From IMG/VR virus record IMGVR_UViG_3300025133_000577, positions 1 through 24,462 of that record: a DNA stretch of 24,462 nucleotides. One strand, 5' to 3'. The position numbers and the translations under genes are program-made. This DNA is from a virus. A model generated the notes under the pieces. The model worked only from the letters and a program-made list of their open reading frames with translations, made no database searches and was not told where the DNA came from. Positions 5,829-24,462 of the stretch are shown here, in pieces (the stretch's first letter is position 1; every line of letters starts with the position of its first letter).

Positions 5829-6167
5829 ATGAAATTCATACAATTCAAAAGAAATCAAGCTAATGCAGCTGATAAATTACAGTTACCAACTGAAGGTATT
5901 ATATCTATCAGTGCGGCAGATGCTACTAGTTGTCTTATATTATATACACCGATTATAAAGTTAGATGCAGATGATGCTACATCAGCAATTTATGATTGTT
6001 TACAATATGATTTAACTGTAGCTGCTATAGGTGGTGCTACTTTAACAAGAGCATCTATTTGTACAGCTGTGACTAATGCAGTTATTGCTGCTGGTGAAGG
6101 TCGCAATGCTTTAGTTCCAGATATGGAAGTAACAAGTGCTGCAATAGCATTTGATGCGTTCTTATAA
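5829..6167 (+). CDS. Small head protein, probably decoration or capsid-associated
   Basis: 112 residues, co-transcribed with the major capsid gene (25-base gap) and followed by a strong terminator. The protein is Ala/Thr-rich with short beta-like segments and few charges (IISISAADATS, AIGGATLTRASICTAV, LVPDMEVTSAAIAFDAF). There is no signal peptide or membrane segment. Position and co-expression at capsid level suggest a decoration or cement protein; no family is recognised, so that role is inference. The leader TAGAAATTATG nearly copies that of the capsid gene. Confidence 0.6.
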   Translation: MKFIQFKRNQANAADKLQLPTEGIISISAADATSCLILYTPIIKLDADDATSAIYDCLQYDLTVAAIGGATLTRASICTAVTNAVIAAGEGRNALVPDMEVTSAAIAFDAFL

Positions 6168-7080: not shown

Positions 7081-8103
7081 ATGGTTAATGTAGATACTGT
7101 TTATAAAACGGTTTTATATATCTTAAATAAAGAACAAAGAGGATATATACCACCAGATGAATTTAACAAATTAGGAATACAAGTTCAACGTGAAATATTT
7201 GAACAATATTTTGAAGAGTTAAATCAACACTTACGTGTACCTCAAACTGATAATGAATATGCTAACCGTATAAAAAACCTAGAAGAAAAAATAGATGTAT
7301 TTAAAACTAATTTGGCATGTACAGGAGCAAATCCTTTCACAATGCCTGCAGATTTACATCGACTAGGTACATTAATTTATAATGTAAATTCTAAAGAAAT
7401 TCAAGGCGTAAATAGAAATGAATATTTCTTAATCAACAAATCTCCTCTCACAGCGCCAACAACAACAAATCCGTTATATATATTAGAAGGCACTGGCGCT
7501 CCATCAGCTGCGCCTAGTACTGCTACAGTATTTCCAAACACAGGTACTAATGCTATTACTACTGGTCAAGTTGATGCTTACTATGTTAAAGCTCCCGCAG
7601 ATCCTAGATGGGGTTATTCGTTGGGAAGTGCAGGACAATATCTATACGACAGTACAACATACGGAGCAACTTTACTAAATAATGGAGGAACGTTAAGTAA
7701 TTTAACTACTCCTTTAGCGGGAGGTGTTGCTGCAACTTATACTCCTACTTTTACTACTTCAGGTGGTGGTGTTGGACTAGCATTAAGCGCTGTAGTTACA
7801 GGAGCAACAGCAGTAACAATAACTGTAACTACTCCAGGTACTGGATTCGCTGTGGGAGATACTATAACAATAAATGCCGCTCAATTAGGTGGTGGTAGTA
7901 CTGGGCCAGTTATAACTTTAACAGCTGCAGATTTTAACGCTAATAGTACTTATGGTTCAACTCAATTTGAATTGCATCCTTCGGAACAAACTAATATAAT
8001 ATTAAACATTTTAATGTATTCTGGTATTATAATAAGAGATCCACAAATAGTCCAAAGTGCCGCTAAAATGGTACAACAAGATGAAATAGTAGAAAAACAA
8101 TAA
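7081..8103 (+). CDS. Neck/head-tail connector-like structural protein with inserted beta module
   Basis: 340 residues. The N-terminal ~90 residues are helical (VDTVYKTVLYILNKEQRG, EFNKLGIQVQREIFEQYFEE) and fit a connector-type protein; first of a run of connector and tail genes. The block YYVKAPADPRWGYSLG near residue 165 and the final part FELHPSEQTNIILNILMYSG and IRDPQIVQSAAKM look like one continuous conserved backbone. Between them (about residues 190-287) sits a Gly/Thr/Val-rich beta stretch containing PGTGFAVGDTITI, which recurs in the 1217-aa protein. The backbone resembles marine podovirus structural proteins from memory; head-tail adaptor is an inference from position. Terminator 14 bases upstream leaves little room for an own promoter. 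Confidence 0.65.
   Translation: MVNVDTVYKTVLYILNKEQRGYIPPDEFNKLGIQVQREIFEQYFEELNQHLRVPQTDNEYANRIKNLEEKIDVFKTNLACTGANPFTMPADLHRLGTLIYNVNSKEIQGVNRNEYFLINKSPLTAPTTTNPLYILEGTGAPSAAPSTATVFPNTGTNAITTGQVDAYYVKAPADPRWGYSLGSAGQYLYDSTTYGATLLNNGGTLSNLTTPLAGGVAATYTPTFTTSGGGVGLALSAVVTGATAVTITVTTPGTGFAVGDTITINAAQLGGGSTGPVITLTAADFNANSTYGSTQFELHPSEQTNIILNILMYSGIIIRDPQIVQSAAKMVQQDEIVEKQ
7738..7941 (+). other. Beta-rich insert module, copy A
   Basis: Codes for about residues 220-287 of the 340-aa protein. Pattern: Val/Thr strand, G-T-G-F, four residues, G-D-T-I-T-I, Gly-rich loop, then a Val-Ile-Thr-Leu strand. The same pattern appears at 9841-10083 and, weaker, at 11860-12035. Flanking sequence reads as a conserved backbone if the module is skipped. 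Confidence 0.5.
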
Positions 8104-8109
8104 TAAGAT

Positions 8110-9252
8110 ATGGCATTATTAACAGAAACTAACGAACAATATTACGGAGGTCAACAAGCTTTTTTACCAATAGCTACACAAACACTATTTACATGGACAG
8201 GAGATACTACTTTAGTTGGTACTGTAAGCAACGTATCGTTTACTAACTTTACATTATCAGTAAATAATGTAGTATGGACAGAAGTTACTGGTGCGCCGGT
8301 TGGTAATCAATATAGATTAACTACAACAAAAGATGAAGTTGAAACACCTGCAATGGCAGGTACAGAAACTGTTGTTATTGAACTTCTAGACGATGCTAAA
8401 TGGGCTAATTATGGAGGTTATGCTTATATAACTATAGAAGAAATAGTTAATAACTTTTTAGTAGCATATGTTGGAGCTGGAAAATTAATACCTAGTGTCA
8501 AAAGAACAGATGTTATATTCCATGCAAAGAGAGGTTTACAAGAATTTAGTTATGATACTTTGAAAAGTATTAAATCTCAAGAATTAACTATACCTCCAAG
8601 TTTATCAATAATAATACCGCAAGATTATGTTAATTATGTAAAATTGTCATATATAGACAATTCTGGAGTTAAACATATTATATATCCAACAACATTAACA
8701 AGTAATCCATTTACAGTACCTATTCAAGACGTAAATGGGGTGCCTACTCAAGATAGTTTAGGTGCTAATTTAGAAGGTACTTCTCAAACTAATGAAAGAT
8801 GGGATGATAATAATATATCTATTCCAACAATAAATACTCAAAATAGTTTATTTTATGATAACGGTATGTGGTATGATTTTAGTTATGGTAAAAGATATGG
8901 TTTAAGTCCTGAAGTTGCTCAATCAAATGGTTGGTTTACTATAGATGAAAGAGAAGGTAAGTTTTCTTTTAGTAGTAATCTAGCTAATCAACTAATAATT
9001 TTAGAGTATATATCAGATGGTTTATCTAGTGATTTAGATACTAAAGTGCCTAAAATGGCAGAAGAAGCTATGTATATGCATATTGCTTATTCTATATTAG
9101 CTAGTAGGTCTGGTATTCAAGAATATGTAGTTAGAAGATATAAAATAGAAAGAAGGGCAGCACTTAGAAATGCTAAAATTAGATTATCAAATATTAAATT
9201 AGAAGAATTTACTCAAATAATGAGAGGTAAATCTAAAATACTTAAAAATTAG
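8110..9252 (+). CDS. Head-tail adaptor / ring-like connector protein
   Basis: 380 residues. The core from about residue 104 (AYITIEEIVNNFLVAYVGAGK, then RTDVIFHAKRGLQEFSYDTL at 132-151 and ELTIPPSLSIIIPQDYVNYV) resembles a connector/ring protein family present in crAss-like and marine podoviruses. The C-terminus is helical and basic (RRYKIERRAALRNAKIRLSN), fitting contact with DNA or a portal/ring partner. Residues about 26-95 form a beta-rich segment (LFTWTGDTTLVGTVSNVSF) that looks inserted near the N-terminus, since relatives I recall reach the YITIEEI block after a much shorter lead. The gene starts 6 bases after its neighbour's stop; role is inferred from position and recalled similarity. 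Confidence 0.65.
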   Translation: MALLTETNEQYYGGQQAFLPIATQTLFTWTGDTTLVGTVSNVSFTNFTLSVNNVVWTEVTGAPVGNQYRLTTTKDEVETPAMAGTETVVIELLDDAKWANYGGYAYITIEEIVNNFLVAYVGAGKLIPSVKRTDVIFHAKRGLQEFSYDTLKSIKSQELTIPPSLSIIIPQDYVNYVKLSYIDNSGVKHIIYPTTLTSNPFTVPIQDVNGVPTQDSLGANLEGTSQTNERWDDNNISIPTINTQNSLFYDNGMWYDFSYGKRYGLSPEVAQSNGWFTIDEREGKFSFSSNLANQLIILEYISDGLSSDLDTKVPKMAEEAMYMHIAYSILASRSGIQEYVVRRYKIERRAALRNAKIRLSNIKLEEFTQIMRGKSKILKN

Positions 9253-9258
9253 AATTCA

Positions 9259-12200
9259 ATGGCAGAAGTAAAAAATAATTTTCTAAAGTCTAAAATGAAT
9301 AAAGATTTAGACGATAGATTAGTTCCTAAAGGAGAATATAGACATGCTCAAAATATATCTGTTGCTAAATCTGAAGGTCAAGATGTTGGAGCTCTTGAAA
9401 ATATTTTAGGTAATAATTTAATTAGTAATTTTACTCTACCTACAGATACATATGGTGTAGAGATTATTGGACATTTTATGGATGTTAGAAATAATCGTAT
9501 AGTAGTATTTATGACTAATTACGTAGATACATCTAGTGATGCATTATCTAATTTTTCCCCTACAGGTGCTTATCATGCTATTGGTGTTTATGATGTAACT
9601 AGTGCTGTTAGTTCTATTGTAGCTGCAGGAAGATTTTTAAATTTCTCTAAAACGCAAGAAATATACGGTATAAACATGATTGATAATTTATTATTTTGGA
9701 CAGATAATAGAAATCAACCTAGAAAAATAAACTTAACAACGGCTATAGGAAGTAATAGTTATTATACTAGTGAAGATCATATTTCTGTATCTAAATATTA
9801 TCCTTATCAAACAATAGATTTAATAACAGATGAGGTAATTCAAGCAACTGTGACTACTTCTGGAACTGGGTATACATTAGCTAACAATGTACCAACGGTT
9901 GCAACTGGTGGTAGTGTTGGTTTTGGATTAACTGTCAATATAGTCGCTGGAGGTGGAGGCGTAGGTATACTTGCGGTAACAATAAATAATACAGGTATTG
10001 GTTATGAAACCGGAGACGTTGTTGAGGTTATCCAACCTGGTACTATTGTTGTTGCTACAGTTACTTTAACGGTCGAAACTACTAGTATGATGCGAGATGT
10101 TGTTAGTAATCTCTTGCCAGATGGTACTACTAATAATCCTTATAGACAGCCTACTGGTACTATAGATCCTATTACTTGGCCCGGAGATACTGAATATTTA
10201 AAAGAAAAATTTGTTAGATTTAGTTATAGATTTAAATTTGATGATGGAGAATATTCTTTAATCGCTCCATTTACTCAAACATGTTTTATTCCTAAACAAG
10301 ATGGATATTTTATTGGAGATGACGATGCTAAGACATTTAAGAGTACAGAGGTTGGATTTATGCAAAATAAGGTTAATGATATAAAATTAATAATTAATTC
10401 TCCTATTGGCGATTGGGATGATATAGATGATGCTCTTAAAGTACATGCAGTTGACATTCTTTATAAAGAATCAGGTCAAAATACAATAAAAATAGTTGAC
10501 ACTATTACTGCTGATGAATTAAATCTAGTTAATTCCACATACTTAACATATGATTATTTATCATCTAAACCATGGAAAACTTTACCAGAAAAAGAAATAT
10601 TAAGAGTTCATGATCAAGTTCCAGTAAGGGCTTTGGCTCAAGAAGTAGCAGGAGATAGAGTAATTTATGGTAATTATATAAATAAACCTACTCCTCCATC
10701 TACAATAAACTACTCTTTAAATATTACTGAAAAAGATGTTGATACTCAGATTGAATTTCAAAATCAAAATTTAAAACAAAATAGATCTTATCAAGTAGGA
10801 ATTGTTTTATCAGACAGATATGGAAGGCAATCAACTGTAATTCTTTCTAGTTTAGATGATAACCCAGGATCTTCATCAATGAAAGGTTCTACTATTTTTA
10901 ATAAATTCAAAGAAAGTCCTTTTTCACAATATAGTGCTGGAGCTTTACTCGAATCTGGAAGTCTTCCTTCAACTCCAGGTGATGTTTGGGATGGAGATAA
11001 TTTAGAAATGACTTTTTGGGATACAATATCTTCGACTAGAGACAATAATACAGGAGCACCTGGATTATATGATGCTACAACAAATCCACTTGGTTGGTAC
11101 ACTTATAAAATAGTTGTTAAACAACAAGAACAAGATTATTATAATATATATTTTCCAGGTATATTAAACGGATATGCAGATGGAGAAACAGTGTCAACAG
11201 CAGCAACTGCAGACGAACCTATATGTCATTTTGTTTTACAAGGAGATAATATAAATAAAGTACCTAGAGATTTATCTTTAGTTGGTCCAAATCAAAATCT
11301 ATTTAGAACTGGTAGACCTAGTGCTAAAGAAGATCCTAGTTATTATCAATTTGTAGATAGTAGTGGAGAAGATTTTATTGTTGATCCATTTTCAAAAGAA
11401 GGTGAAAAATTATTAAAAGAAAGAGATAGAGAAAGAGATTTAGATTCTGGAAGTCAAATAACTAACGCTAGTGTAAAATTATCTTTAAGATTAAATAATA
11501 CAATTGGAGCAACTTCTCTTACTACTACTACTCAGCAATTTTATCCAGATAATAATGTAGATACTGTTACTACCATAGGCACTGGATCAGAATTAGGTTT
11601 ATGGGATCCTTCAGCTATAACTCCATTTAACACGGCTAATGTTTTTTATGGTTATCAAAATAATCCATACATTGCTAAAACAAATGTATCATCTCCTACA
11701 GGTAATGTTGGACCTTCAGCTTTAGCTACACAAACAGGACTCATAGGACCACATCCTAGCGCTCATTTACAAAAATGGAAAGTTACTACTATAGGTGGAG
11801 TTGGAGGTGATTATATAGCAGGAAGTAAAAATATTCCTTGCAAAATAAACAGTACTAATCCTATAATAAACGGCTTTTTAGTTAATATAGATGAGGTTGG
11901 AGGTTCTAATGAAGTTACTTCAATGTCTATATCTGATATAGGTGTTGGATGGGATTCGTTAACCACCTATAGCGCTCAAACTGGAATTATAACTGGAGCT
12001 GGTGATGGAACAGAAACTTTTACTATTACTCCAGTGACTACAACTCCAACTCCAGCTGGGACAATGCTTCCTTCCTTAGCAGTTTACGAAACACAACCTT
12101 TAGAAAGTAAATTAAATATTTACTGGGAATCATCTTCTAATGGTTTAATAAGTGACTTAAATACGGCAGTACAAAGTGGAGATCTTACTACTCCTGTAAA

Positions 12201-12912
12201 CTTTATAGGTACAGGGTTAAATCCTATAGATTATATTCAAGCAGAAGATAACGCTATTGGTACTAATGTTATGTCTAACGCGGCATTATTTGCCATAAAT
12301 GCAAGTGGAAATGTATTATCTGGACCTATTACATTTACTTTAACTAGCGTGATAGATGGATACAATGTTAATAGGAGAAGTAATTTTACACTAGATGATG
12401 GACCTGTTGGTTATCCTGATGGATTTAGATTAAAAACTAATTCATATTTTGTAGCTAATTCAGACAATAACATTAATAATACATTTATATTTAATATAAA
12501 CGTAGAAGCTCCGAGCGCTACTTATGGCAGTGATGGAACGTTTATAAATAGACAATTATCTATAGGACCTTGTACTTTAGAAAATACAGCGCCAAGTTTA
12601 GCAGTTGTACCTGCTACATTTTTATATAATTTCCCAGGCACGCTTGTGGCAACATTAAATGCAGGGAATGGATCGTACATAGGTGGAGGATTAGAATTTG
12701 ATGAATTAGACTTTAGCTTTAATTATTATACTGGTCCTGGACTTACCACACAAGGATTATATTTTGTAAATACAGGGGTACCAGGTGAAAGAGAACTTTG
12801 GATTGATAATACTGTAGTATCAGGCAATCAGGTAGATTTTGATTTAATTATTACAGATCAAAATGGAACTGGACTTAGTACATCTTCAGCGCATAAAATC
12901 TTCGTAAGTTAA
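9259..12912 (+). CDS. Large tail protein (propeller-like N-terminal part, Ig/cadherin-like C-terminus)
   Basis: 1217 residues. It opens with NNFLKSKMNKDLDDRLVPKG and GEYRHAQNISVAKSEGQDVG, a signature of large tail/stabilization proteins of marine and crAss-like podoviruses related in layout to P22 gp10. Repeated strands with aromatic/Asp turns (GINMIDNLLFWTDNRNQPRK at about 134-153) suggest beta-propeller blades. LKQNRSYQVGIVLSDRYGRQ (about 505-525), DNINKVPRDLSLVGPNQN (about 664-681) and LAVYETQPLESKLNIYWESS (about 940-960) are backbone blocks I recognise from such proteins. Beta modules are inserted at about 195-275 and 870-925. The last ~110 residues, after ENTAPSLAVVPA, read as an Ig/cadherin-like domain, possibly surface exposed. 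The role in tail assembly or receptor contact is inferred. Confidence 0.7.
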   Translation: MAEVKNNFLKSKMNKDLDDRLVPKGEYRHAQNISVAKSEGQDVGALENILGNNLISNFTLPTDTYGVEIIGHFMDVRNNRIVVFMTNYVDTSSDALSNFSPTGAYHAIGVYDVTSAVSSIVAAGRFLNFSKTQEIYGINMIDNLLFWTDNRNQPRKINLTTAIGSNSYYTSEDHISVSKYYPYQTIDLITDEVIQATVTTSGTGYTLANNVPTVATGGSVGFGLTVNIVAGGGGVGILAVTINNTGIGYETGDVVEVIQPGTIVVATVTLTVETTSMMRDVVSNLLPDGTTNNPYRQPTGTIDPITWPGDTEYLKEKFVRFSYRFKFDDGEYSLIAPFTQTCFIPKQDGYFIGDDDAKTFKSTEVGFMQNKVNDIKLIINSPIGDWDDIDDALKVHAVDILYKESGQNTIKIVDTITADELNLVNSTYLTYDYLSSKPWKTLPEKEILRVHDQVPVRALAQEVAGDRVIYGNYINKPTPPSTINYSLNITEKDVDTQIEFQNQNLKQNRSYQVGIVLSDRYGRQSTVILSSLDDNPGSSSMKGSTIFNKFKESPFSQYSAGALLESGSLPSTPGDVWDGDNLEMTFWDTISSTRDNNTGAPGLYDATTNPLGWYTYKIVVKQQEQDYYNIYFPGILNGYADGETVSTAATADEPICHFVLQGDNINKVPRDLSLVGPNQNLFRTGRPSAKEDPSYYQFVDSSGEDFIVDPFSKEGEKLLKERDRERDLDSGSQITNASVKLSLRLNNTIGATSLTTTTQQFYPDNNVDTVTTIGTGSELGLWDPSAITPFNTANVFYGYQNNPYIAKTNVSSPTGNVGPSALATQTGLIGPHPSAHLQKWKVTTIGGVGGDYIAGSKNIPCKINSTNPIINGFLVNIDEVGGSNEVTSMSISDIGVGWDSLTTYSAQTGIITGAGDGTETFTITPVTTTPTPAGTMLPSLAVYETQPLESKLNIYWESSSNGLISDLNTAVQSGDLTTPVNFIGTGLNPIDYIQAEDNAIGTNVMSNAALFAINASGNVLSGPITFTLTSVIDGYNVNRRSNFTLDDGPVGYPDGFRLKTNSYFVANSDNNINNTFIFNINVEAPSATYGSDGTFINRQLSIGPCTLENTAPSLAVVPATFLYNFPGTLVATLNAGNGSYIGGGLEFDELDFSFNYYTGPGLTTQGLYFVNTGVPGERELWIDNTVVSGNQVDFDLIITDQNGTGLSTSSAHKIFVS
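9841..10083 (+). other. Beta-rich insert module, copy B
   Basis: Codes for about residues 195-275 of the 1217-aa protein: Gly-rich, with VTTSGTGYTLANNVPTVATG, then VTINNTGIGYETGDVVEVI. The GxGYxxGDxxxI core matches copy A. It separates the propeller-like start from the block MMRDVVSNLLPDGTTNNPYR. Confidence 0.5.
11860..12035 (+). other. Beta-rich insert module, copy C (degenerate)
   Basis: Codes for about residues 868-925 of the 1217-aa protein. SMSISDIGVGWDSLTTYSAQ followed by a Gly-rich loop and FTITPV keeps the strand-GxGW-loop-strand layout of copies A and B but lacks the GD pair. It precedes the conserved LAVYETQPLESK block. Confidence 0.35.
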
Positions 12913-12953
12913 TTTTTAGTAAAAACAGTTTCAAGTAAGTAATAATATTAATT

Positions 12954-14654
12954 ATGGCATATCAATTAAAGGTAAAATATTTCAATTCTTTTGTTTTAAA
13001 AAAAGTTGTTAAAACTGGTGATGTTCAAACAGGAAGTTGGCCTGGTTTACCATGGGCACCTACTGCTGTAGGAACTGATGGTATTTCTAGATCTTATCCT
13101 AATTTTCCTTGGGGTGCATATGCGACAGGGGCTGAAGAGTATGTAAATTGGTATTTAGAAGAATCTAGGATAAAAGGGGGGTTTAATAATACTATAATGG
13201 AACTAGGTGTAAGAGCATATGCTGTTAATAAAAACCCTGCTCAAGATGATAGATCTAGTAGTTTAATATTTTCTGGAGTTTATAATGATAGAACTGGAGT
13301 TAACAATACTAATGTATTTTCTATTAGTGAAAGTATAATTAGAGATGCAAATCCTAGTCATGGTAGTATTCAAAAATTATATGCACAAAATACAAATTTA
13401 TTAGTTCTTCAAGAAAATAAAGTTCATAAAGCGTTAATTGATAAAAACACCATATATAGTGGTGATCAAGGAGCAGAAGAATTACTTGGAAATCCTAGAA
13501 CTATAGGACAATTAGTTCCTTATGCAGGAGAATATGGAATTAGTAGAAATCCAGAATCATTTGCAATATATAGTAATAGAAAATATTTTGCTGACAAAGA
13601 TAGAAATGCAATGTTAAGATTATCTGCTGGTCCTGGTGGTGGAGATGGTATAACTGAAATATCTATGTATGGTATGCGAGATTATTTTAGAGATGAATTA
13701 GCTACTATTTCCGACAATAGAACAAGAAGAGTTATAAATATAACTTCAGGAATGGGTGGTGGTTCTACATCTACTTTAACTTTAAATAATGTTATAGGTA
13801 TTGAAGTTGGTGCAATAGTAGAAGAAGTAAATAGTACACCAACTACTCTTCCAACAGGGAGTGTGGTTGTAGGTATTCCATCTAGTACAACTGTGACAAT
13901 ATCTCCAGCTTATGTTGTAACTGCAAATTTAGTGAGTTTTAATTTTGTAACATATAGAAGAGATAAAATTTATGGAGGATGGGATATTCATAGAAAAAAT
14001 TATATAGCATCATTACAACAATCTTCTAGATTTATTTCAACAGCTGAAGATTCTTTTAATACTTTAAGTTTTGATGAAAATGCTAAAGGTTGGACTAGTT
14101 TTTATAGTTATAAACCTATATTTTTAGGTAGTTTAAAAAATAAGTTTTATACTTTTATTAATGATGAGATATATGAACATTATGTATCAATAGGAAATAA
14201 TCATTGTAAATTTTATGGTAATGCAACTCCAGATGAAGCTAGTGTAGAATTAATATTTAATCCTAGTCCATCTATTAAAAAGAATTTCAACACTATATCT
14301 TACGAAGGTGATAATGGGTGGGAAGTGGAATCTATAGTATCTAGCAAACAAGGGGTTGATAATGGTGTTAGTTATCAAGATGCTGCAAACCCAATAAAAA
14401 GTTATGATGAAGGATCATACATAGAAAACGGTGTTACTTATCAAGCAGGATTTGATAGAAAAGAAAATAGATATGTAGCTAATATAGTAAATGCTAGTAG
14501 TGTAAGACCAGGTGAGGTAATATTTGGAAAAAGTGTTAGTGGTATAAAAGGATACTTTGCTACAGTTAAAATTAAAGTTGATTCAACAACTAACGTAGGA
14601 GGTGCTAAAGAATTGTATTTAGCATCGTCTAACTATGTAATGTCATCTTATTAA
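12954..14654 (+). CDS. Tail stabilization-like protein (P22 gp10-like family of crAss-like phages)
   Basis: 566 residues. Blocks SIQKLYAQNTNLLVLQENKV and KALIDKNTIYSGDQG (about 141-175), LVPYAGEYGISRNPESFAIY (about 186-205), RKYFADKDRNAMLRLSAG, DGITEISMYGMRDYFRDEL and YGGWDIHRKNYIASLQ match, from memory, the stabilization proteins of crAss-like phages, thought to form part of the tail hub. Residues about 260-332 are a beta-rich insert (SGMGGGSTSTLTL, VVVGIPSSTTVTISPA) between RDELATISDNRTRR and YRRDKIYGGWD. The gene follows the 1217-aa gene in another frame after a 41-base gap and may represent the second half of what is one polypeptide in some relatives. Start ATG at 12954 lies in the AATTATG context shared with the capsid gene. 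Confidence 0.72.
   Translation: MAYQLKVKYFNSFVLKKVVKTGDVQTGSWPGLPWAPTAVGTDGISRSYPNFPWGAYATGAEEYVNWYLEESRIKGGFNNTIMELGVRAYAVNKNPAQDDRSSSLIFSGVYNDRTGVNNTNVFSISESIIRDANPSHGSIQKLYAQNTNLLVLQENKVHKALIDKNTIYSGDQGAEELLGNPRTIGQLVPYAGEYGISRNPESFAIYSNRKYFADKDRNAMLRLSAGPGGGDGITEISMYGMRDYFRDELATISDNRTRRVINITSGMGGGSTSTLTLNNVIGIEVGAIVEEVNSTPTTLPTGSVVVGIPSSTTVTISPAYVVTANLVSFNFVTYRRDKIYGGWDIHRKNYIASLQQSSRFISTAEDSFNTLSFDENAKGWTSFYSYKPIFLGSLKNKFYTFINDEIYEHYVSIGNNHCKFYGNATPDEASVELIFNPSPSIKKNFNTISYEGDNGWEVESIVSSKQGVDNGVSYQDAANPIKSYDEGSYIENGVTYQAGFDRKENRYVANIVNASSVRPGEVIFGKSVSGIKGYFATVKIKVDSTTNVGGAKELYLASSNYVMSSY
13731..13950 (+). other. Beta-rich insert in the stabilization-like protein
   Basis: Codes for about residues 260-332. 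It has the layout 'G...VGAIVEEV...GSVVVGIPSSTTVTIS', a short beta pattern seen in many tail proteins but different from modules A-C. Removing it joins two conserved blocks. Confidence 0.4.
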
Positions 14655-14678
14655 GATAAATATATAAAATAAAACAAA

Positions 14679-15458
14679 ATGGATTACGTAAACCTTTTCG
14701 AAGATTTAATAGGTACTGGAGCTCAAATTTATACAGGAATTCAAGCTAGAGATAAAAAGAAGATTGAAGAGACTAAAGCATTTAAAGCTGAGCAAAAATT
14801 AAAAAACTTTGAAAAAAGCAGACAAGCGGTTTTGGATCAATCTGGAGCCATAAGAGCATTAAAATCTCAAGTATTTAATCCAGCCGCTAATTTAGCTGTA
14901 GCTAATAAAGCTGCTGAGTTAAAAATAGAACAAACTGATCAAGCATTAGCTAATACTTTAGATCAAATAAATAGAAGTGGTACGGGTGCTGGAGCTGCAA
15001 CTGCACTTGCTAGAATGGCCGCTGCATCAAAAGCTGAAATTGGAGCATCTTTAGAAAAAGGAGAAGTTGAAAATCAAAAACTACGCGCTGCGGGAGAAGC
15101 TAAAGCTGCTGCAACTAAATTAAGATTAGAAGAATCTGCTCTTAGAGAAGAGGGCTCTGCGTGGAATAGACAAGAAACTAGAGATTTAACACAATTAGAT
15201 AGACTTCAATCTCAGCAAGAAAATGCTGAAGCTCAAGCGTTGTCTTATGGAGAACAACAAGATGCCGCTATGTTAGCAGGTTTGACTGGTTTAACAGATA
15301 CATTAGGTGGAGCTTTAAATAGTATGGGACAGAAATCTGGAACTAACACTACATTTAATCCACTACTAGACGAAGGTCCAGAAGAATGGGTGGATAAATC
15401 AGGTCAAACACAAGAACAACAAAACGCAGAGTTGTTAAATATATTAGGTATAAAATAA
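14679..15458 (+). CDS. Internal virion-like protein, Ala-rich coiled coil
   Basis: 259 residues. Residues 1-25 (MDYVNLFEDLIGTGAQIYTG) are a weakly hydrophobic segment and residues about 25-200 are an Ala/Glu/Gln/Lys/Leu-rich helical coiled coil (AANLAVANKAAELKIEQTDQ, EVENQKLRAAGEAKAAATKL) containing NRSGTGAGAATALARMAAAS, a Gly/Ala patch. The C-terminal quarter is Gly/Asn-rich and ends near ILGIK. Composition, size and place before two large hydrophilic proteins match the smallest ejection protein of podoviruses (T7 gp14-like or P22 ejection proteins). No direct homology is claimed; role is inferred. Confidence 0.6.
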   Translation: MDYVNLFEDLIGTGAQIYTGIQARDKKKIEETKAFKAEQKLKNFEKSRQAVLDQSGAIRALKSQVFNPAANLAVANKAAELKIEQTDQALANTLDQINRSGTGAGAATALARMAAASKAEIGASLEKGEVENQKLRAAGEAKAAATKLRLEESALREEGSAWNRQETRDLTQLDRLQSQQENAEAQALSYGEQQDAAMLAGLTGLTDTLGGALNSMGQKSGTNTTFNPLLDEGPEEWVDKSGQTQEQQNAELLNILGIK

Positions 15459-17231: not shown

Positions 17232-20200
17232 ATGAATCCAGAAGCATTAGAATATAGTTACGGGTTATTTCAAAATGACGGATATGACGGTAGTTTAGAA
17301 GAGTATCAAGAGTTAATCTCTACTAATCAAGAAGCTAAAGACTATTCGTTTAATTTGTTTTCAGCAGATGGATATAATGGTTCTCTTGAAGATTTTTCAA
17401 ATCTTATAACAAGTGAAATAGTACCTGAAGCAGGAGCTCCAGTTGCAGGAATAGATAAAACTGAATCTGTCTTTTACGAAGATGTAGAAATTGAAGAACC
17501 TGCACATTCAGAAGAAGAAATCAAAGAAGCTAATATATGGGTTACTCCCCCTATGATACAAGCTGCAAATAAAAAACTTAAATGGAATGAAGATATTTCA
17601 GAGGATAACTACGATGCATGGGTTGGAGATAATGCTGATGGTAAAGTAGTTGAAGCTTGGGATTTATATAAAAGTGAAAACCTAGGAATTGAAAAAGAAT
17701 CTGGTCAAGAAGCTATTACTATAGAAGGTTTAAGTGAAGCTACGTTGGAAGACATTGATCCAATAATTAATAGAGAATATGAAAGTAGTGATTTAAAATC
17801 AACTACTTTAAATGATTATATAAGTGAAAAAGTTGATAAAATATCTAAAGCTCAAGATGAAGAATTTATTAAGTTATTAGGTAAACCTATAGAAGAATTT
17901 GCAGTTAAAGATAGTAAAGGAAATATAACATATGATATTCCTGAAGATAAAATTGAAGAATTTAATAATATTGTCAAAAAATATCAACCACAATGGGATA
18001 ATATAGACATAGATAGTAGAAAAGCTACGATGATTTTTGATAGATATAATGAATTAGCAGATGAAGCTAATAAATTAGCAAAGTCTATTAGTAAAATAGA
18101 TCCTATAAAGGAAATTGGTGAAGATACTACAGGGACGGTAGTTGAAAAAGTTGATCCAATTAGTGGTGAAATTATGGAATCATATGATTATGATGAATTT
18201 AAATATCGACTTGTTACTCTAGGAGAGTACAAAAGTGTACAAGATGTTGTAAAAGCGTATAATATATCTACTACAGAAGCTGAATACAGAATCACTAACA
18301 TGCTTGAAGAGGCGGAAGTTGAATCAGATCCAGATAAATGGTGGCATTATCTTACTGATAAAAAATATAGAAAGAAAATAGATGATCAAAGACAAAGGCG
18401 TCGAAGTTATAAATGGTGGAAACGATTATTAGATAATTCATCTAGTGAAGAGATATTTACAATGGAGCAAAGCAAAGGTAAAGAATATTTAGATACTTTT
18501 TTACCTGACGGTTTTACAACTGTAGAAACTGGGGCAATTCATGTTGGAATACCAGGAACTCGCGATTTTGTAACAGTTATAAACAACAGAACTGGTAATA
18601 GTATTGAAATAGGATTTGATTTTAGTAGAGATGATAAAAGAAGTATTAGAGCAGAAAGAACTAAATTAACTACTTTTTTAACGCACAATACTACTAAATT
18701 ACAACTAGAGGAATCGCGTTATAGATCTAAAACTGCTTATCAAAAATTTTATAAAGCAGAAACAACTTCTGTAGCAGATGGAGGATTTAATGTAGATGAT
18801 TTAAAACTAGCTTCATATAATAAATATTCTACTGATGTAAATCCTGATTTATTTAATCCTAAAATTACTAAAGCTAAATTAGAAGGAATCAAAGCCGGAG
18901 GAGGATATGCTGATAAGTACCTTGCTAGTGATGTTGCAGAGATGGGACTTGATGCTTCACAACTAGTTCAAGGAGAAGCATACAATGTTGAATTTGATGA
19001 CAATGTTGTTGATGCTCAGAAAAAAGCATTAATGATATTAGCTGCTGAAAGACAAAAAAATGGAGTGAAAAATCAAGAAACTCCACCATTAACTATTGGA
19101 TTAGATTTTGATACTAATGTAGTTAAAGGTTTAAATATTACACAAACGCAAGTTGATAATTTAGCTAGAGAAATATTAGGTGATAAAGATTGGGGTATGG
19201 TTCAACAACGTGCTTTTGAAAATTGGGTTGAAACAGGTAGATGGAAGAAAGAGGAAGATAAAGCTCAAATGGGTGTTCTTTTTAAAACTATGATAGATAA
19301 GACTGAAAGTACTAGAAAAGCTATGTTATCAAGCGCTTGGTTATCAGAAAAAACAAGGGAGCTAGAAGAATATACAAGCAATGTTAGTAATACATTTTAT
19401 TCTGAAACGTACAAGAAATTTAAAGAAGACGAAAGTATAGTATATCCAATTGCTCCAGGAGAAGGATATTATGAGGTTGATGGAAGAAAGATACCATCTA
19501 AAATAATTGATGGTATGCGAGCAGAATATAAAGCTCTAAATTTAGTTTATACTAATTATGACAACGCGGCAATGGAAGCAGAATGGGCGGTTGATCATGT
19601 TAATGATTTTGATGATAAATGGAAAATATATAAACATAATTATAACGACGCTGAACAAGCGGGCACTGCTTTTACATTAGGAGTAGCAGATATATTCCTT
19701 GGCACTGCTCATGGAGCTTATAAATTACTTTCATTACCTGGAGATGCAATAAAAATGCTAGTTGGTATGGATACTCAAGATCCTATAGATAAAGCTATGG
19801 CTAATTGGTACAACTTTAAAGATAGAGAACAATCTCAATTTGCTCCAAAAGTAAAATATGGAGAATGGACAAATTCATTGGAGTTTGGTAGTTACTGGAT
19901 GAATACTGGAGCAGAACAATTACCTATTTATGCAGCTATGATGGCAGCTAATCTTCTTGCCCCAGGAAGTACCGCAGCAGTTGCGTTTGTAGCTGGAGGT
20001 TCTACTTATTCTACTACAGATCATCAAATGAGAATGAATGGTGATGAAGATTTATCAGAAGGAGATATATTTTTTCGTGGTCTTTTGTCAGGTATAAATG
20101 AATTTGGTTTCACTTACTTATTTGGTTCACCTTTAGTTAAAAAAGGAGGTGATATTTTAAGAGGTAAAGGAGGTAATCCTTTTAAAAGATTTAGGACAGG

Positions 20201-23200
20201 TAAAATAGATTATCTAAGAGGTCAAACTCCATTAATGGTTGAAGGTTTTCTAATGGAAGCAACGGAAGAAGGTTTGATTATGGGGTTTGATAATATTATT
20301 CATGGTAGATCTATCTTAGAGAATGTCCAAGAATCAGCAGTTGTTGGAGGTGTTTTTGGGTTAAATATGATAATGGCACCATCGTTAGGTGTTATGATGT
20401 CTAGAAATTTTACAAATGGAGACGCACTAAATACTTTGGCAAAAAATACTAAAACGTTAGCTAATCTTTATAATGAAAACGATGTAATTAGTGATGAAAT
20501 TTTAAAGTTGCAATATGATAATATAAATTTAAGTGGTAAAACTAATCAAGGAAAAAGAAATCAAAATACAGAAAGAATAAAACGTTTAAATCTAAAACTT
20601 GATAATAACAATCAGATAAAAGAAGAGCTTACTATTGAGAATTCAGAAACACTTGATGGAGTACAAGATAATTTAATAAATCAAGGATTAGGTAAAAACG
20701 CTTATGATAATTTTAATCTAAGTTCTGTAGAAGCATTCAAAATACAACAACAAGTTAATGATATTAAAAGTGATCCTGAGGTAGATGCAAAAGAGAAAAA
20801 AGAATTAATTGATATATTAACTTCTAAACTTAATAAAATAAGATCTAGTTTAGAAAAATTTAAATCTAAAGAGCTATGGGGACATGGATATTATTCTTTA
20901 CTAGCAAGTTCATTTGTGAGCAAGAAAAATAAAAAACGTATAAATGAAATTAGAGCAGAAGCAACTACGCATATATTAGAGAAAAAAGGTAGTGAGCATG
21001 AAATAAGTCAAAAAGAAATAGATGAAGAAGGTGCTAAAATATATATAAAACAAGAAATAGAACAGCAGTTAACTAGTGATAAAAAATTAAATAACGATTT
21101 AAAATCAGCAGATACTAAAGAAGATGGAGTTAAAGTTATCACTGACCATTATGATTCTTTAATTGCAGAGGCGGAAAAAAATAATAATCTAAAACAAAAA
21201 GAAAAATTAGAAGAACATAGAGATAATACTATTAATAGTATAAATGATGGTTCAGTTAATGGAGTTTATTTATTAAATGGAGATCTGGATAGTGATTTTA
21301 AAGAAACATATGTTGCTATTGTGGAAAACATGGTAAATAATGAAACTACTACAACGGGTATTCATGAAACCGCGCACGCGTGGAGCGTTAGATTAATGAA
21401 AGAAAATCCTAAAAAATTTAACGATTTTGGAGAAGCAGTAACTAAGTTTTTGCAAGAAAAGCATTCAGATGTTTGGGAGTTTATTACAACAGAAAATGTA
21501 GGTATATATAATGAAGATGGCACAATAGATTATGAAGAAGTAATATCTTCTTTTGCTGAACAAGTAGCTGCTAATAAAATAAAATTAAATAACAAAGGGT
21601 TATGGCCAGCTATTCTTGGCAAAGCGTGGAATATTGGTCTTAAAGAATCTGGAGGACAAGATATTTCTTTTAGAGGACAAAATGATATTATTGCTTATTT
21701 TGAAAATGTATTAAAAGATGTTGTAACTGATAAAAAAATAGATTCTGACACGAAAGACGTATCGCAAAAAGATATAGTTAAAACTGATAAAACTATAAAA
21801 GAAAAAAAATCTCAATCAAGAGCAAAGAAAAAAGCACAAAAAGATTTAAAACTAGAGAAAAAAGAAGTTGGAGAACAAATAAATGAAGTAGCGGGTGATA
21901 TTAAAAGTGCTAATGAGTTAGCAGCAAAGTTGTATAAAGAAATGTTAGATCCTAATGCAACAGGTAAAACAGCTAGATTATTAGATAATGTAATAGATAA
22001 TCAATTAAGGATTAATGGAGTAGATGTAGCCGCAGGTAATGTTTATAATAAGCCTTTAAAAGAATTTAGACAAGAAGTTAAAGATGAACTTTTGATAGGA
22101 ACTATAATGCGTTTTGATCCTAAAAAAGCTATTAAAAAAGAGGGTGCATATGATCCAGGTGGATTTATTGTTTCTGAATTAGTTAATTATAGGATTGGAG
22201 ATGTATTAAATAAATATAGACCTAAGTCAGGAGAAGTGTCAATTGATGTTCCTTTAGAATCTGGTAAAACTAGAGAATTTGTTGATGAAAGTATAGATAT
22301 TGAAGGTGCAATTGATGAAAAACCTACAGTAACTCCAAGATCTAAAATAAAAAAGCAAGCTCCAGATTTAGTAACTCAAGAATTAGAAGATTTAGTTGAG
22401 ACAGCAGTATTAGAAATTGAAGCAGGAGTAAGACCTGATGTAGATGATAAAGTATATAAATCTTTTATACAAGAAGTATTAGAAGGTAAACTTACTAATG
22501 AAATCAAAGATAGATTTGGTAAAGGCGCAGAGTATGATAATTTTATTAAGAAATTTGCTCCAGTTTTAAAGAAATCAATGCCACCACAATTTTTTGTTAA
22601 AATTGAATCTCAAATAAAACCAGAAGATAGACAATTTACATTTCCCCCTAAAAGATTAACTACACAAGCAGAAATAGATAAAGCTACTAGAAGTGATCAA
22701 GTATATGTAGAAAACACTGCACAAGGTGTTAACATGTATAAATTAAAAGATTTTTCAAGTAGAGATTTAGCTAATTTCTTGTTACCTCCGGCAATTCATC
22801 CTAAAACTGGTAAGAAAAGTGGTAGAAAAGGAACTATAAAAACATCTGTAGCTAAGTCTGTTGGAGTAGAACTAGGTAAAGATATGATACCATCTGTTAT
22901 GGAGGGGTTAGGCAAAAGTCAGAAAGAAATAGCTATAGCTAGTGTGAAAGCACAACGACAACCTACTATCAAGTTTCATAAATCTGGAATGCAAGATATG
23001 GTTAGAAAAATGGGTATAGAACCATTAACTATAAAAGGTGGAAAAAAAGTGTATTCTTTGTATGATTTTACTGGAAAAGATAAAGATAAAAATAAAACAA
23101 TAGAATTATCAGATAAAGAAGCATTTAAGAAATGGATTATAGAAGTTGTACCTAGATATTTACCAATAGAATTTATTACTAAATCATCTTTAGTTGGTTA

Positions 23201-24462
23201 TGGAAGTAAAGCAAAATACTTCTATTTTACATCTGATGAAGTTACACAAATAAAAAAAGAAGCTGCGAAAAATCAAAAAGAATTTACTCCAGAAGAGCGC
23301 GCCGCGATTAAAGAAATGGTTAGTGGACTTGGAGATTACAAAAGTGGTATTTGGGCTAATATAAAATATTTAGTAGGTACAGCAGAATATAAAAAGAGAG
23401 TTGATCTTAACTATAAAGGATTAGGTATTGTATTTAATAAGTTTCAAGATATGATAGCAGCTAATCCAAACAGTGTGAAGTTTATTGTTGGTATGTTAGA
23501 AACAGGTTCTCAATCCAGTAGTCATTGGTTAAGAAATGCTGCTATGCCTAGAGGATACGATAGATTAGTAGGAGCAAAATGGAGTGGAGAAACTCATGTA
23601 AAAGAACATGTATGGCCTCAAAATATGTTTGCAGAATTTATGTTGGGAGTTGCTATTAAAGGTGCATCAAAAGGAAATATAAATATCGATAAAGTAATGC
23701 CATTTGTTAAAGACAATTATTTTCAAATGTTAATTACATTAAAAGATGACAATAAATTAAAAGATACTAAGCCCAAATATGGAATAAAATACAATCTTCA
23801 AGCGGTTCCACCTAAAGAGTTTTTAGATAGTTTACAGGAAGCTTTTAAAACAGGAGACTTAACTAAAGCAAAAAGTATTTGGACAAGATATGTTAATTCT
23901 TTAGTTAATAATAATGATGGAGGATTTAACTTAAATAATTTAATTTTTGATGGAAAATCTGTAGCCTCTATATTTAATGTAGATGTAAGTAAAGAGTATA
24001 GAAATAATTCTAAAGTCATTGAATTACAGAATAAACTTATTGAAGCTCAACTATTAGGTCAAGATGTAAAACCTAAAAAAGTAATGTATTTTTTCACTAG
24101 AGATTTAGCTACTCCAGAAGAAAACGCATTAAAAGAGCGTAAAAAAGAAGTTGATGGAAATAAAGTTATATCTAAATTTAGTCAATCAGCTAATGGTAAT
24201 AACGTTAATAGAGAAAGTCAAATATTAGATAAAGCTTTACAAATTGCTCGAGATCCTAATGCTCCTGTTAAAAAGATTAGAGTATTTGATTTTGATGATA
24301 CATTAGCTAGAACTAAAAGTAATGTTATATATAATAAACCTAATACAACTGGTAAACCATCGTCAAATTTAAAGGCAATAGTAATGGCAGGTGGACCTGG
24401 TAGTGGAAAATCTACTGTTATAAAAGGTCTAGGACTACAAAAGCAAGGATACAAAGTAGTCA
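17232..24462 (+). CDS. Giant polyvalent virion protein, 3' partial (at least 2410 residues)
   Basis: The frame is open without a stop from ATG 17232 to the right edge, so the true length exceeds 2410 residues; it starts 3 bases after the previous stop in TATATG context. Order of visible parts: two tandem 30-residue repeats (8-61); a long acidic/helical region (about 90-800); hydrophobic or Gly/Ala-rich segments at about 812-840, 897-925 and 1037-1056; a Lys/Glu-rich coiled region to about 1340; an HExxH zincin-like site at 1378-1382; further unassigned charged domains to about 2000; a His/Trp/Pro-rich block at 2094-2130; and a HAD motif I plus P-loop at 2353-2395. The multi-domain layout, with peptidase-, phosphatase- and kinase-like motifs on one chain, fits 'polyvalent' proteins of marine phages thought to be ejected with DNA. 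Alternatives are a tape-measure-like protein or unusual ejection protein. No polymerase motif is seen in this part. Confidence 0.75.
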   Translation, partial: MNPEALEYSYGLFQNDGYDGSLEEYQELISTNQEAKDYSFNLFSADGYNGSLEDFSNLITSEIVPEAGAPVAGIDKTESVFYEDVEIEEPAHSEEEIKEANIWVTPPMIQAANKKLKWNEDISEDNYDAWVGDNADGKVVEAWDLYKSENLGIEKESGQEAITIEGLSEATLEDIDPIINREYESSDLKSTTLNDYISEKVDKISKAQDEEFIKLLGKPIEEFAVKDSKGNITYDIPEDKIEEFNNIVKKYQPQWDNIDIDSRKATMIFDRYNELADEANKLAKSISKIDPIKEIGEDTTGTVVEKVDPISGEIMESYDYDEFKYRLVTLGEYKSVQDVVKAYNISTTEAEYRITNMLEEAEVESDPDKWWHYLTDKKYRKKIDDQRQRRRSYKWWKRLLDNSSSEEIFTMEQSKGKEYLDTFLPDGFTTVETGAIHVGIPGTRDFVTVINNRTGNSIEIGFDFSRDDKRSIRAERTKLTTFLTHNTTKLQLEESRYRSKTAYQKFYKAETTSVADGGFNVDDLKLASYNKYSTDVNPDLFNPKITKAKLEGIKAGGGYADKYLASDVAEMGLDASQLVQGEAYNVEFDDNVVDAQKKALMILAAERQKNGVKNQETPPLTIGLDFDTNVVKGLNITQTQVDNLAREILGDKDWGMVQQRAFENWVETGRWKKEEDKAQMGVLFKTMIDKTESTRKAMLSSAWLSEKTRELEEYTSNVSNTFYSETYKKFKEDESIVYPIAPGEGYYEVDGRKIPSKIIDGMRAEYKALNLVYTNYDNAAMEAEWAVDHVNDFDDKWKIYKHNYNDAEQAGTAFTLGVADIFLGTAHGAYKLLSLPGDAIKMLVGMDTQDPIDKAMANWYNFKDREQSQFAPKVKYGEWTNSLEFGSYWMNTGAEQLPIYAAMMAANLLAPGSTAAVAFVAGGSTYSTTDHQMRMNGDEDLSEGDIFFRGLLSGINEFGFTYLFGSPLVKKGGDILRGKGGNPFKRFRTGKIDYLRGQTPLMVEGFLMEATEEGLIMGFDNIIHGRSILENVQESAVVGGVFGLNMIMAPSLGVMMSRNFTNGDALNTLAKNTKTLANLYNENDVISDEILKLQYDNINLSGKTNQGKRNQNTERIKRLNLKLDNNNQIKEELTIENSETLDGVQDNLINQGLGKNAYDNFNLSSVEAFKIQQQVNDIKSDPEVDAKEKKELIDILTSKLNKIRSSLEKFKSKELWGHGYYSLLASSFVSKKNKKRINEIRAEATTHILEKKGSEHEISQKEIDEEGAKIYIKQEIEQQLTSDKKLNNDLKSADTKEDGVKVITDHYDSLIAEAEKNNNLKQKEKLEEHRDNTINSINDGSVNGVYLLNGDLDSDFKETYVAIVENMVNNETTTTGIHETAHAWSVRLMKENPKKFNDFGEAVTKFLQEKHSDVWEFITTENVGIYNEDGTIDYEEVISSFAEQVAANKIKLNNKGLWPAILGKAWNIGLKESGGQDISFRGQNDIIAYFENVLKDVVTDKKIDSDTKDVSQKDIVKTDKTIKEKKSQSRAKKKAQKDLKLEKKEVGEQINEVAGDIKSANELAAKLYKEMLDPNATGKTARLLDNVIDNQLRINGVDVAAGNVYNKPLKEFRQEVKDELLIGTIMRFDPKKAIKKEGAYDPGGFIVSELVNYRIGDVLNKYRPKSGEVSIDVPLESGKTREFVDESIDIEGAIDEKPTVTPRSKIKKQAPDLVTQELEDLVETAVLEIEAGVRPDVDDKVYKSFIQEVLEGKLTNEIKDRFGKGAEYDNFIKKFAPVLKKSMPPQFFVKIESQIKPEDRQFTFPPKRLTTQAEIDKATRSDQVYVENTAQGVNMYKLKDFSSRDLANFLLPPAIHPKTGKKSGRKGTIKTSVAKSVGVELGKDMIPSVMEGLGKSQKEIAIASVKAQRQPTIKFHKSGMQDMVRKMGIEPLTIKGGKKVYSLYDFTGKDKDKNKTIELSDKEAFKKWIIEVVPRYLPIEFITKSSLVGYGSKAKYFYFTSDEVTQIKKEAAKNQKEFTPEERAAIKEMVSGLGDYKSGIWANIKYLVGTAEYKKRVDLNYKGLGIVFNKFQDMIAANPNSVKFIVGMLETGSQSSSHWLRNAAMPRGYDRLVGAKWSGETHVKEHVWPQNMFAEFMLGVAIKGASKGNINIDKVMPFVKDNYFQMLITLKDDNKLKDTKPKYGIKYNLQAVPPKEFLDSLQEAFKTGDLTKAKSIWTRYVNSLVNNNDGGFNLNNLIFDGKSVASIFNVDVSKEYRNNSKVIELQNKLIEAQLLGQDVKPKKVMYFFTRDLATPEENALKERKKEVDGNKVISKFSQSANGNNVNRESQILDKALQIARDPNAPVKKIRVFDFDDTLARTKSNVIYNKPNTTGKPSSNLKAIVMAGGPGSGKSTVIKGLGLQKQGYKVV
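17253..17414 (+). repeat. Two tandem 30-residue repeats at the start of the giant protein
   Basis: Residues 8-31 (YSYGLFQNDGYDGSLEEY and onward) and 38-61 (YSFNLFSADGYNGSLEDF and onward) are identical in 13 of 24 positions with a spacing of 30 residues. The shared core is LF..DGY.GSLE(E/D)(Y/F)..LI. The DNA copies (17253-17324 and 17343-17414) have diverged, so the protein pattern is what is kept. Possible role: a docking or virion-packaging tag; unproven. Confidence 0.85.
19665..20400 (+). other. Hydrophobic segments inside the giant protein
   Basis: Three stretches stand out of a very hydrophilic protein: residues about 812-840 (AFTLGVADIFLGTAHGAYKL), 897-925 (IYAAMMAANLLAPGSTAAVA, then AFVAGG) and 1037-1056 (VVGGVFGLNMIMAPSLGVMM). 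They are Ala/Gly-rich, amphipathic to hydrophobic and separated by charged linkers. They could insert in a host membrane during DNA ejection. None is a clear signal peptide. Confidence 0.5.
21363..21560 (+). other. Zincin-like metallopeptidase site (HETAH) in the giant protein
   Basis: GIHETAHAWSVRLMKE carries HExxH at residues 1378-1382 (His1378, Glu1379, His1382), preceded by a polar Thr-rich strand. About 55-60 residues downstream is DYEEVISSFAEQVA, with Glu1435/1436 and Glu1443 as possible third zinc ligand (gluzincin-style). Family members in phage polyvalent proteins usually read HExxHA, as here. Activity and target are unknown. Confidence 0.6.
24273..24462 (+). other. HAD motif I followed by P-loop in the giant protein
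   Basis: KIRVFDFDDTLARTKS places DxDxT (Asp2353, Asp2355, Thr2357) after a hydrophobic strand, the classic HAD motif I in which the first Asp is the nucleophile. Thirty residues on, AIVMAGGPGSGKSTVIKG gives a Walker A loop (2387-2395; Lys2393, Ser2394) after its own strand. The rest of both domains lies beyond the window. The P-loop resembles zeta-toxin or small nucleotide/polynucleotide kinases. Confidence 0.75.

Follow-up and report, generated by a model that had tools for sequence, protein, structure and literature searches.

Module-bearing genes of the tail

The window analyzed in this study is the virus record IMGVR_UViG_3300025133_000577 over its whole length of 24,462 bases, and it is a fragment from a crassvirus-like podovirus. 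Two of its structural genes, encoding a tail-barrel ring protein and the front part of the tail muzzle, contain a small beta-barrel module that is probably a mobile part of the virion. By family matches, the genes are ordered as portal (phrog_6547), capsid-type protein (phrog_13704), two connector-type proteins, and then the muzzle, which is spread over two genes. The features concerned are listed below. Amino acid (aa) numbers count within the named protein, L numbers denote the loci of relatives, and the window-free profile was built without any window sequence.

7081..8103, plus strand: tail-barrel ring protein, 340 aa; phrog_14543, E 3.6e-27; fits the phicrAss001 tail-barrel protein 7qoj_E
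7651..7944, plus strand: extra segment at ring site A, aa 191-288; missing in empty-site relatives, present in 12 of 47 distinct ring proteins
7696..7926, plus strand: barrel module, ring copy; window-free profile E 2.3e-9, iterated profile 1e-14; hole in DNA identity to L002 at about 7681-7921
9259..12912, plus strand: muzzle protein, front part, 1217 aa; PF25731 crAss_MUZ, 31.1 bits (cut-off 27); phrog_14478, E 1e-52
9835..10074, plus strand: barrel module at muzzle site 1; window-free profile E 8.0e-13; AlphaFold2 (AF2) model; identity hole to L002 at about 9790-10080
11770..12048, plus strand: probable diverged barrel module at muzzle site 3, aa 838-930; assigned by position, profile match and an identity hole to L002 at about 11700-12060
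12954..14654, plus strand: muzzle protein, rear part, 566 aa, in a gene of its own; PF25729, 33.8 bits (cut-off 27); phrog_14478 positions 919-1101

The 340-aa protein was modeled from 53 alignment rows with a predicted local distance difference test score (pLDDT) of 83.9. The model aligned to the phicrAss001 ring protein 7qoj_E with a VIA Z of 13.2 over 196 residues, and other podophage tail proteins ranked next. Its predicted fold is that of the phicrAss001 ring and identifies the protein as a tail-barrel ring protein. Searching solved structures with the ring and muzzle sequences yielded no useful match, whereas the fold search of the ring succeeded. The two families of the crassvirus muzzle, PF25731 and PF25729, were both found above their cut-offs on two adjoining genes. 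The gene break at 12912-12954 is present likewise in L002, L015 and L075, and phi38:1 has a single 3975-base gene where the window's muzzle starts. Among the matches listed, the nearest named phages by protein are mainly Cellulophaga and Flavobacterium phages, with one Maribacter phage and one environmental record, at identities of 28-34% across roughly one third of the muzzle and 28-31% across roughly half of the ring protein.

Detection of the module family

The starting set consisted of 67 loci, namely 60 full or partial ring homologues that were used (L002-L061), one short end fragment (L062) and six module-only matches (L063-L068). The contigs partly overlap, so that domain counts are not independent. 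The ring alignment comprised 47 distinct proteins longer than 200 aa, drawn from the 60 homologues and the window and including the window protein. A module profile built from 17 seed modules detected 78 domains, the seeds among them, in 72 real open reading frames (ORFs) at an independent E value (iE) < 1e-3. At the same threshold it found no domain in 4605 block-shuffled ORFs and none in 4605 reversed ORFs. Both clear window copies were recovered by the window-free profile at the E values listed above, and a profile of muzzle copies only detected the window ring copy at E 7.1e-5. With a ring-only profile, no muzzle match in the window was listed at E<=10.

Other searches added little. Scanning with a single module as query gained only three further loci, and tblastn of two module sequences against the phage collection returned no match, perhaps through low-complexity filtering. 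The module was absent at E<=10 from the fetched regions of all four named relatives, phi38:1, MW202828, Panino and elemoF, and there is thus no cultured carrier among those four. None of the literature titles and abstract beginnings that were screened describes such a module in rings or muzzles.

A resemblance produced merely by Gly/Thr-rich composition has next to no probability as a general explanation. The module is indeed Gly/Thr-rich, and the empty tblastn result would fit a mere likeness in composition, but the shuffled and reversed ORFs yielded nothing, and the module has a confidently predicted fold and defined insertion edges. For the two clear window copies this explanation was refuted, and it has a low probability for the third.

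The three copies in the window

The initial annotation had placed three modules at aa 220-287 of the ring protein and at aa 195-275 and 868-925 of the 1217-aa muzzle protein, all approximately, between flanks that read as a conserved backbone without them. The backbone reading was borne out by relatives with empty sites. The ring module is real, with its profile match at 7696-7926. The span first given for it lies inside the insertion, but the segment that is extra relative to empty-site proteins is wider, aa 191-288. The first muzzle module is likewise real, and was correctly placed, at 9835-10074.

The third module does sit at a site that is occupied in relatives, but the module profile alone does not detect it (iE 45, aligned at 845-920), and it never became significant through four iterations. 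Its support comes for this reason from position, the identity hole and a modest profile match, and its limits are better set at about aa 838-930. It aligns to the muzzle site where L005, L006, L020 and L022 have clear copies, and this site is empty or nearly so in L073, L075, L113 and L139. A profile of six orthologous site-3 segments matched the module profile modestly, with an hhalign probability of 56% and a pairwise E of 1e-4 over 53 columns. The segment is probably a diverged member of the module family.

Exchange of modules between phages

Comparison of the module with its ring backbone gave discordant identities. The window and L002 are 97% identical in the ring backbone and 59% in the module, while the window and L011 are 53% identical in the backbone and 83% in the module. 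L004 and L005 have 92% backbone identity and 36% module identity. In approximately unbiased (AU) tests, the module data rejected the grouping of the window with L002 (p 3.8e-11), and the backbone data rejected the groupings of the window with L011 and L012 (p 1.6e-5) and of L002 with L113 and L008 (p 5.8e-5). By these tests, a shared history of module and ring backbone is rejected in the sequences compared.

The same contrast was found at the DNA level. Across most of 7081-15300, about 76-99% of the bases are identical between the window and L002, and the stretch at 12061-12540 is less conserved, at 71-86%. The ring module reaches only 61-72% between flanks of about 84-99%, muzzle module 1 reaches 53-72% between flanks of about 90-99%, and muzzle module 3 reaches 54-62% between flanks of about 76-83%. 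In the muzzle pair of the window and L069, the backbone is 95% identical and site 1 is 52% identical, denoting replacement. The changes observed were gain, loss and replacement of entire segments.

Sites and occurrence

Occurrence was counted over distinct full-length proteins with profile-detected copies, which leaves out diverged copies like the window's third one. Sampling began from carriers, and the counts are therefore no population frequencies. In the ring, 19 of 113 distinct full-length ORFs have the module, 17 at site A and two at site B. In the muzzle it was found in 27 of 102 distinct ORFs, 22 with a single copy and five with two. Site B of the ring, located between FT(L)P and HRLG, is occupied in L093 and L139, whose site A is empty, and the L139 ring protein is 67% identical to that of the window. 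When site A, site B and empty were treated as states on the ring backbone tree, at least six changes were required; the tree has 53 rows, eight of them added for carrying the module.

Site 1 of the muzzle varies in content: some relatives have the module there, others have inserts of a different kind, and the rest have little. L101 has a module upstream of site 1, L113 has a second module downstream of it, and a clear copy lies just upstream of site 3 in L008. A count of muzzle sites as 11 bins of start positions (50 aa) was dropped, since L005, L006, L020 and L022 fall into different bins and yet share one aligned site. L014 possesses nested copies, in which profile positions 3-38, a complete module (1-80) and positions 36-79 follow in order.

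A third gene, at the place of the following small gene of the window, carries the module in L002, L008, L031, L034, L036, L093 and L139.

5829..6167, plus strand: small 112-aa gene downstream of the capsid gene, without the module in the window; the L002 gene at the same place carries it, and the following stretch and the start of the next gene match

At 6300-7093 of L002 the module gene occupies the place of the 112-aa gene, and the stretch ahead of it closes with a similar C-terminus, which may mark the same gene in a second copy. Beyond ring and muzzle, the module was found in a tail-sheath-type protein (L063, at 543-624) and in tail-fibre-type proteins (L065 and L068). Fifteen module members matched 18 PHROG families, the named ones being baseplate, fibre, structural, head-closure and head-decoration proteins.

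At the level of sequence, these comparisons demonstrate presence and absence of the module at fixed places, exchange independent of the backbone, differing sites and virion genes, and one nested copy. The initial annotation had named as its counter-evidence that homologues all carry the module at the same sites with a divergence equal to that of the backbone, and the sites, identities, AU tests and identity holes clearly speak otherwise. An old and fixed part of these proteins, lost in some lineages and evolving faster merely through exposure, is accordingly very improbable. Some close pairs do hold the module at near-backbone identity (L075/L076 and L006/L010), and copies cluster by site. Against such a history stand the 53% backbone with an 83% module, the 97% backbone with a 59% module, and AU tests that reject shared history both ways. 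Moreover, site B in place of site A in a 67%-identical protein and the nested copy demand insertion and not loss alone.

The module could also insert and persist as a harmless passenger, without any selected function. In favour of this reading, 94 of the 113 rings and 75 of the 102 muzzles have no copy that the profile finds. However, the Gly/Tyr/Asp core is conserved in widely diverged copies and the window copies sit in intact open frames, and we regard a neutral passenger as unlikely.

Movement between genes

The notion in the initial annotation of a domain that copies among virion genes fared well with regard to gain, loss, exchange and differing sites in homologous backbones, but the idea of a single module copied three times was not supported. 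Identity between the two clear window copies is only 22%, and each is nearest to a same-site copy in another phage. The ring copy of the window is nearest to that of L011 (84%), and its muzzle copy 1 to the muzzle copy of L002 (49%). Recent duplication of one from the other was rejected on the 22% identity. When each of 59 modules was listed with its three nearest neighbours, the L020 muzzle copy and the L093 ring copy at site B were the most similar pair from different genes, with 53% identity. A tree of the 59 modules, in which 18 of 56 inner branches are well supported, required 15 changes among six site classes, against a mean of 32.8 after shuffling. The modules thus cluster by site, and jumps from gene to gene seem to be older or less frequent than swaps at one site. 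As judged from the sequences, phages have recently exchanged modules mostly at corresponding sites.

Fold and nearest known structures

An AF2 model of the muzzle-1 module (9829-10083) has six strands and a pLDDT of 89.7. We predict the module to be a six-stranded beta-barrel that has about 80 residues and folds on its own, its autonomy being suggested by the model and by the nested copy. After re-alignment of the Foldseek candidates, the best match was the T4-type sheath domain I, 3foa_C 96-190, with Z 5.3, a root-mean-square deviation of 3.4, 77 of 85 residues aligned and 20% identity. Another T4-type sheath chain, 9ev2_S1, followed at 5.1, then T-protein-type chains at 4.5 and 4.4, and eIF2 and EF-Tu barrels at about 4 and below. 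The sequence profile searched against solved structures ranked gp18 first, weakly (E 0.032), and hhalign aligned module and gp18 over 24 columns around the motif with a probability of 87% and a pairwise E of 4e-6. The Pfam family of gp18 domain I, PF22639, matched four of 15 module members at E<=0.1. Predicted viral structures gave five matches at E<=0.001, with template modelling (TM) scores of 0.76-0.83, and baseplate proteins as well as fibre and structural proteins of cyanophages are among the weaker matches.

The T4 gp18 domain I (PF22639; PDB 3foa and 3fo8) is the nearest solved fold, though a modest match. It resembles the modeled module as a small six-stranded barrel set into another domain, with the best structural match at gp18 96-190, and the motif PGSxYxxGDxI is common to both. 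They differ in an extra helix of gp18 that the module model lacks. The gp18 insertion is located in domain II of a sheath protein, whereas the hosts of the module are the ring and muzzle of a short-tailed phage. L063 does have the module in a sheath-type protein, but at another place (543-624).

Possible functions of the module

As reported for T4 gp18, domain I protrudes and makes no sheath-sheath contacts, binds the baseplate and the retracted long fibres, and carries three mutations that inhibit fibre retraction (PMC3004832). By analogy, the module may hold fibres or other virion parts and be swapped along with its partner. Such a docking role is a tentative possibility. It is favoured by these properties of gp18 and also by the wedge insertion domain reported to hold the long fibre of phage A-1(L) (PMC10966104). 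On the other side, one partner would not obviously need several copies at unrelated sites.

The initial annotation proposed host- or glycan-binding decoration, which is plausible by analogy. In this case the modules would be lectin-like and give the tail a low-affinity grip on capsular or surface polysaccharide, as in lactococcal 936 phages. Those phages share the design of extra domains on neck and tail proteins, and two such domains, one in the tail and one in the neck, are reported to have bound host cells (PMC6669499). Unlike them, the present module is known from sequence and model and matches no carbohydrate-binding module family; a Pfam search of the 15 module members at E<=0.1 gave no carbohydrate-binding family. 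In addition, phage parts are the reported binding partners of the nearest solved fold (PMC3004832). Glycan binding as the specific role is likewise a tentative possibility. Since gp18 domain I protrudes and binds phage parts, docking is at least as likely as glycan binding, and the remaining probability goes to a neutral passenger or to other roles.

Comparison with other exchangeable domains

Ig-like domains are optional surface domains found across unrelated phage virion genes, and the module resembles them in this respect. In contrast, the fold matches listed for the module are mostly barrels (gp18 domain I, T-protein, eIF2 and EF-Tu), although absence of Ig-like folds from that listing is not exclusion. 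Length variation of the crassvirus muzzle is also comparable; Bayfield et al. (2023, PMC10172136) note that its crass and IG2 regions contain insertions with a possible effect on the properties of the surface, but the part of that report consulted describes no shared module moving among ring, muzzle and head genes. Mosaicism of phage protein domains, with domains common to otherwise unrelated proteins and RIFT-related ones in tail and neck, is treated by Smug et al. (2023, PMC10684548). That work is a broad survey whose main text contains neither "crAss" nor "tail sheath".

Other variable regions of the window

DNA identity to L002 has further holes, dropping to 51-54% where the 1217-aa protein ends, to 56-71% midway through the 566-aa protein and to 40% near 15300, and shorter dips occur near 8821 and 10921. 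The hole in the rear muzzle gene at 13690-13920 contains a different small insert (aa 243-323, approximately). An iterated profile of this insert matches 39 ORFs of the loci, overlapping contigs included, and it has no Pfam match at E<=0.1. Another exchanged segment, at 8130-8400, covers the N-terminal 95 residues of the 380-aa connector protein; its DNA identity to L002 is 40-77%, and a single-sequence search with it gave relatives near the start of proteins of similar length in other loci. The final 100 residues or so of the 1217-aa muzzle gene (12600-12900), before the gene break, are strongly diverged from L002; besides the window, this end is matched only by L002 and overlapping or near-identical contigs (L003 and L069). 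A very long open frame of at least 2410 aa at 17232-24461 extends past the end of the window.

A mobile module, probably of the virion surface

Taken together, we consider it likely that the barrel is a mobile virion module, directed outward, exchanged independently of its backbone and offering a changeable surface for docking or adhesion. It would splice in frame into loops of tail and head proteins and leave the host fold undisturbed. Modules would be exchanged when the conserved edges of an occupied site recombine, and insertion at new sites would be rarer. By analogy with gp18 domain I, the module would be displayed on the outside of tail barrel and muzzle, where it may present a changeable docking or adhesion surface to fibres, neighbouring virion parts or the cell envelope. 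Module swapping probably alters the outer surface of the virus while the working core stays.

Several observations weigh against this interpretation. L006 and L010 are 100% identical in ring backbone and module alike, and the module tracks the backbone in the muzzle pairs L075/L076 (97% and 94% for backbone and module), L072/L074 (89% and 76%) and L078/L079 (88% and 77%). Several close pairs thus keep the module with its backbone, and exchange would be intermittent. The groups in the AU tests were picked after the identities were known, and the grouping of the window with L011 and L012 has a support of just 86/88 in the module data. Transfer between genes took place, but its frequency and timing are weakly resolved, given short sequences and few supported branches. 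As to the fold, Foldseek against the PDB gave no match at E<=0.001, with gp18 entries at 1.7 and above, and the gp18 Z of 5.3 barely exceeds those of unrelated barrels (4.5 and below). The best PF22639 match, the window ring copy at E 0.0017, reached 18.7 bits and lies below the gathering cut-off of 27 bits.

Decorating and exchangeable domains are already known as a class, and what is new is this barrel in crassvirus-like rings and muzzles. The finding suggests that core multi-copy parts of the tail, ring and muzzle, are hot spots for whole-domain swapping besides the fibres. The module is well defined and its fold is confidently predicted, and empty-site and nested versions exist in nature, which opens its role in adsorption or fibre docking to direct testing. 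More speculatively, and somewhat short of an even chance in our estimation, the barrel may be a widespread mobile domain of tailed-phage virions, occurring in ring, muzzle, sheath, baseplate, fibre and head genes. The T4 gp18 domain I would then be one domesticated copy, and in crassvirus-like phages the barrel would belong to a set of interchangeable cassettes which together give the tail a new outer face while its core is retained. If the link to gp18 is true, the classic T4 domain would be one case of a general mobile part.

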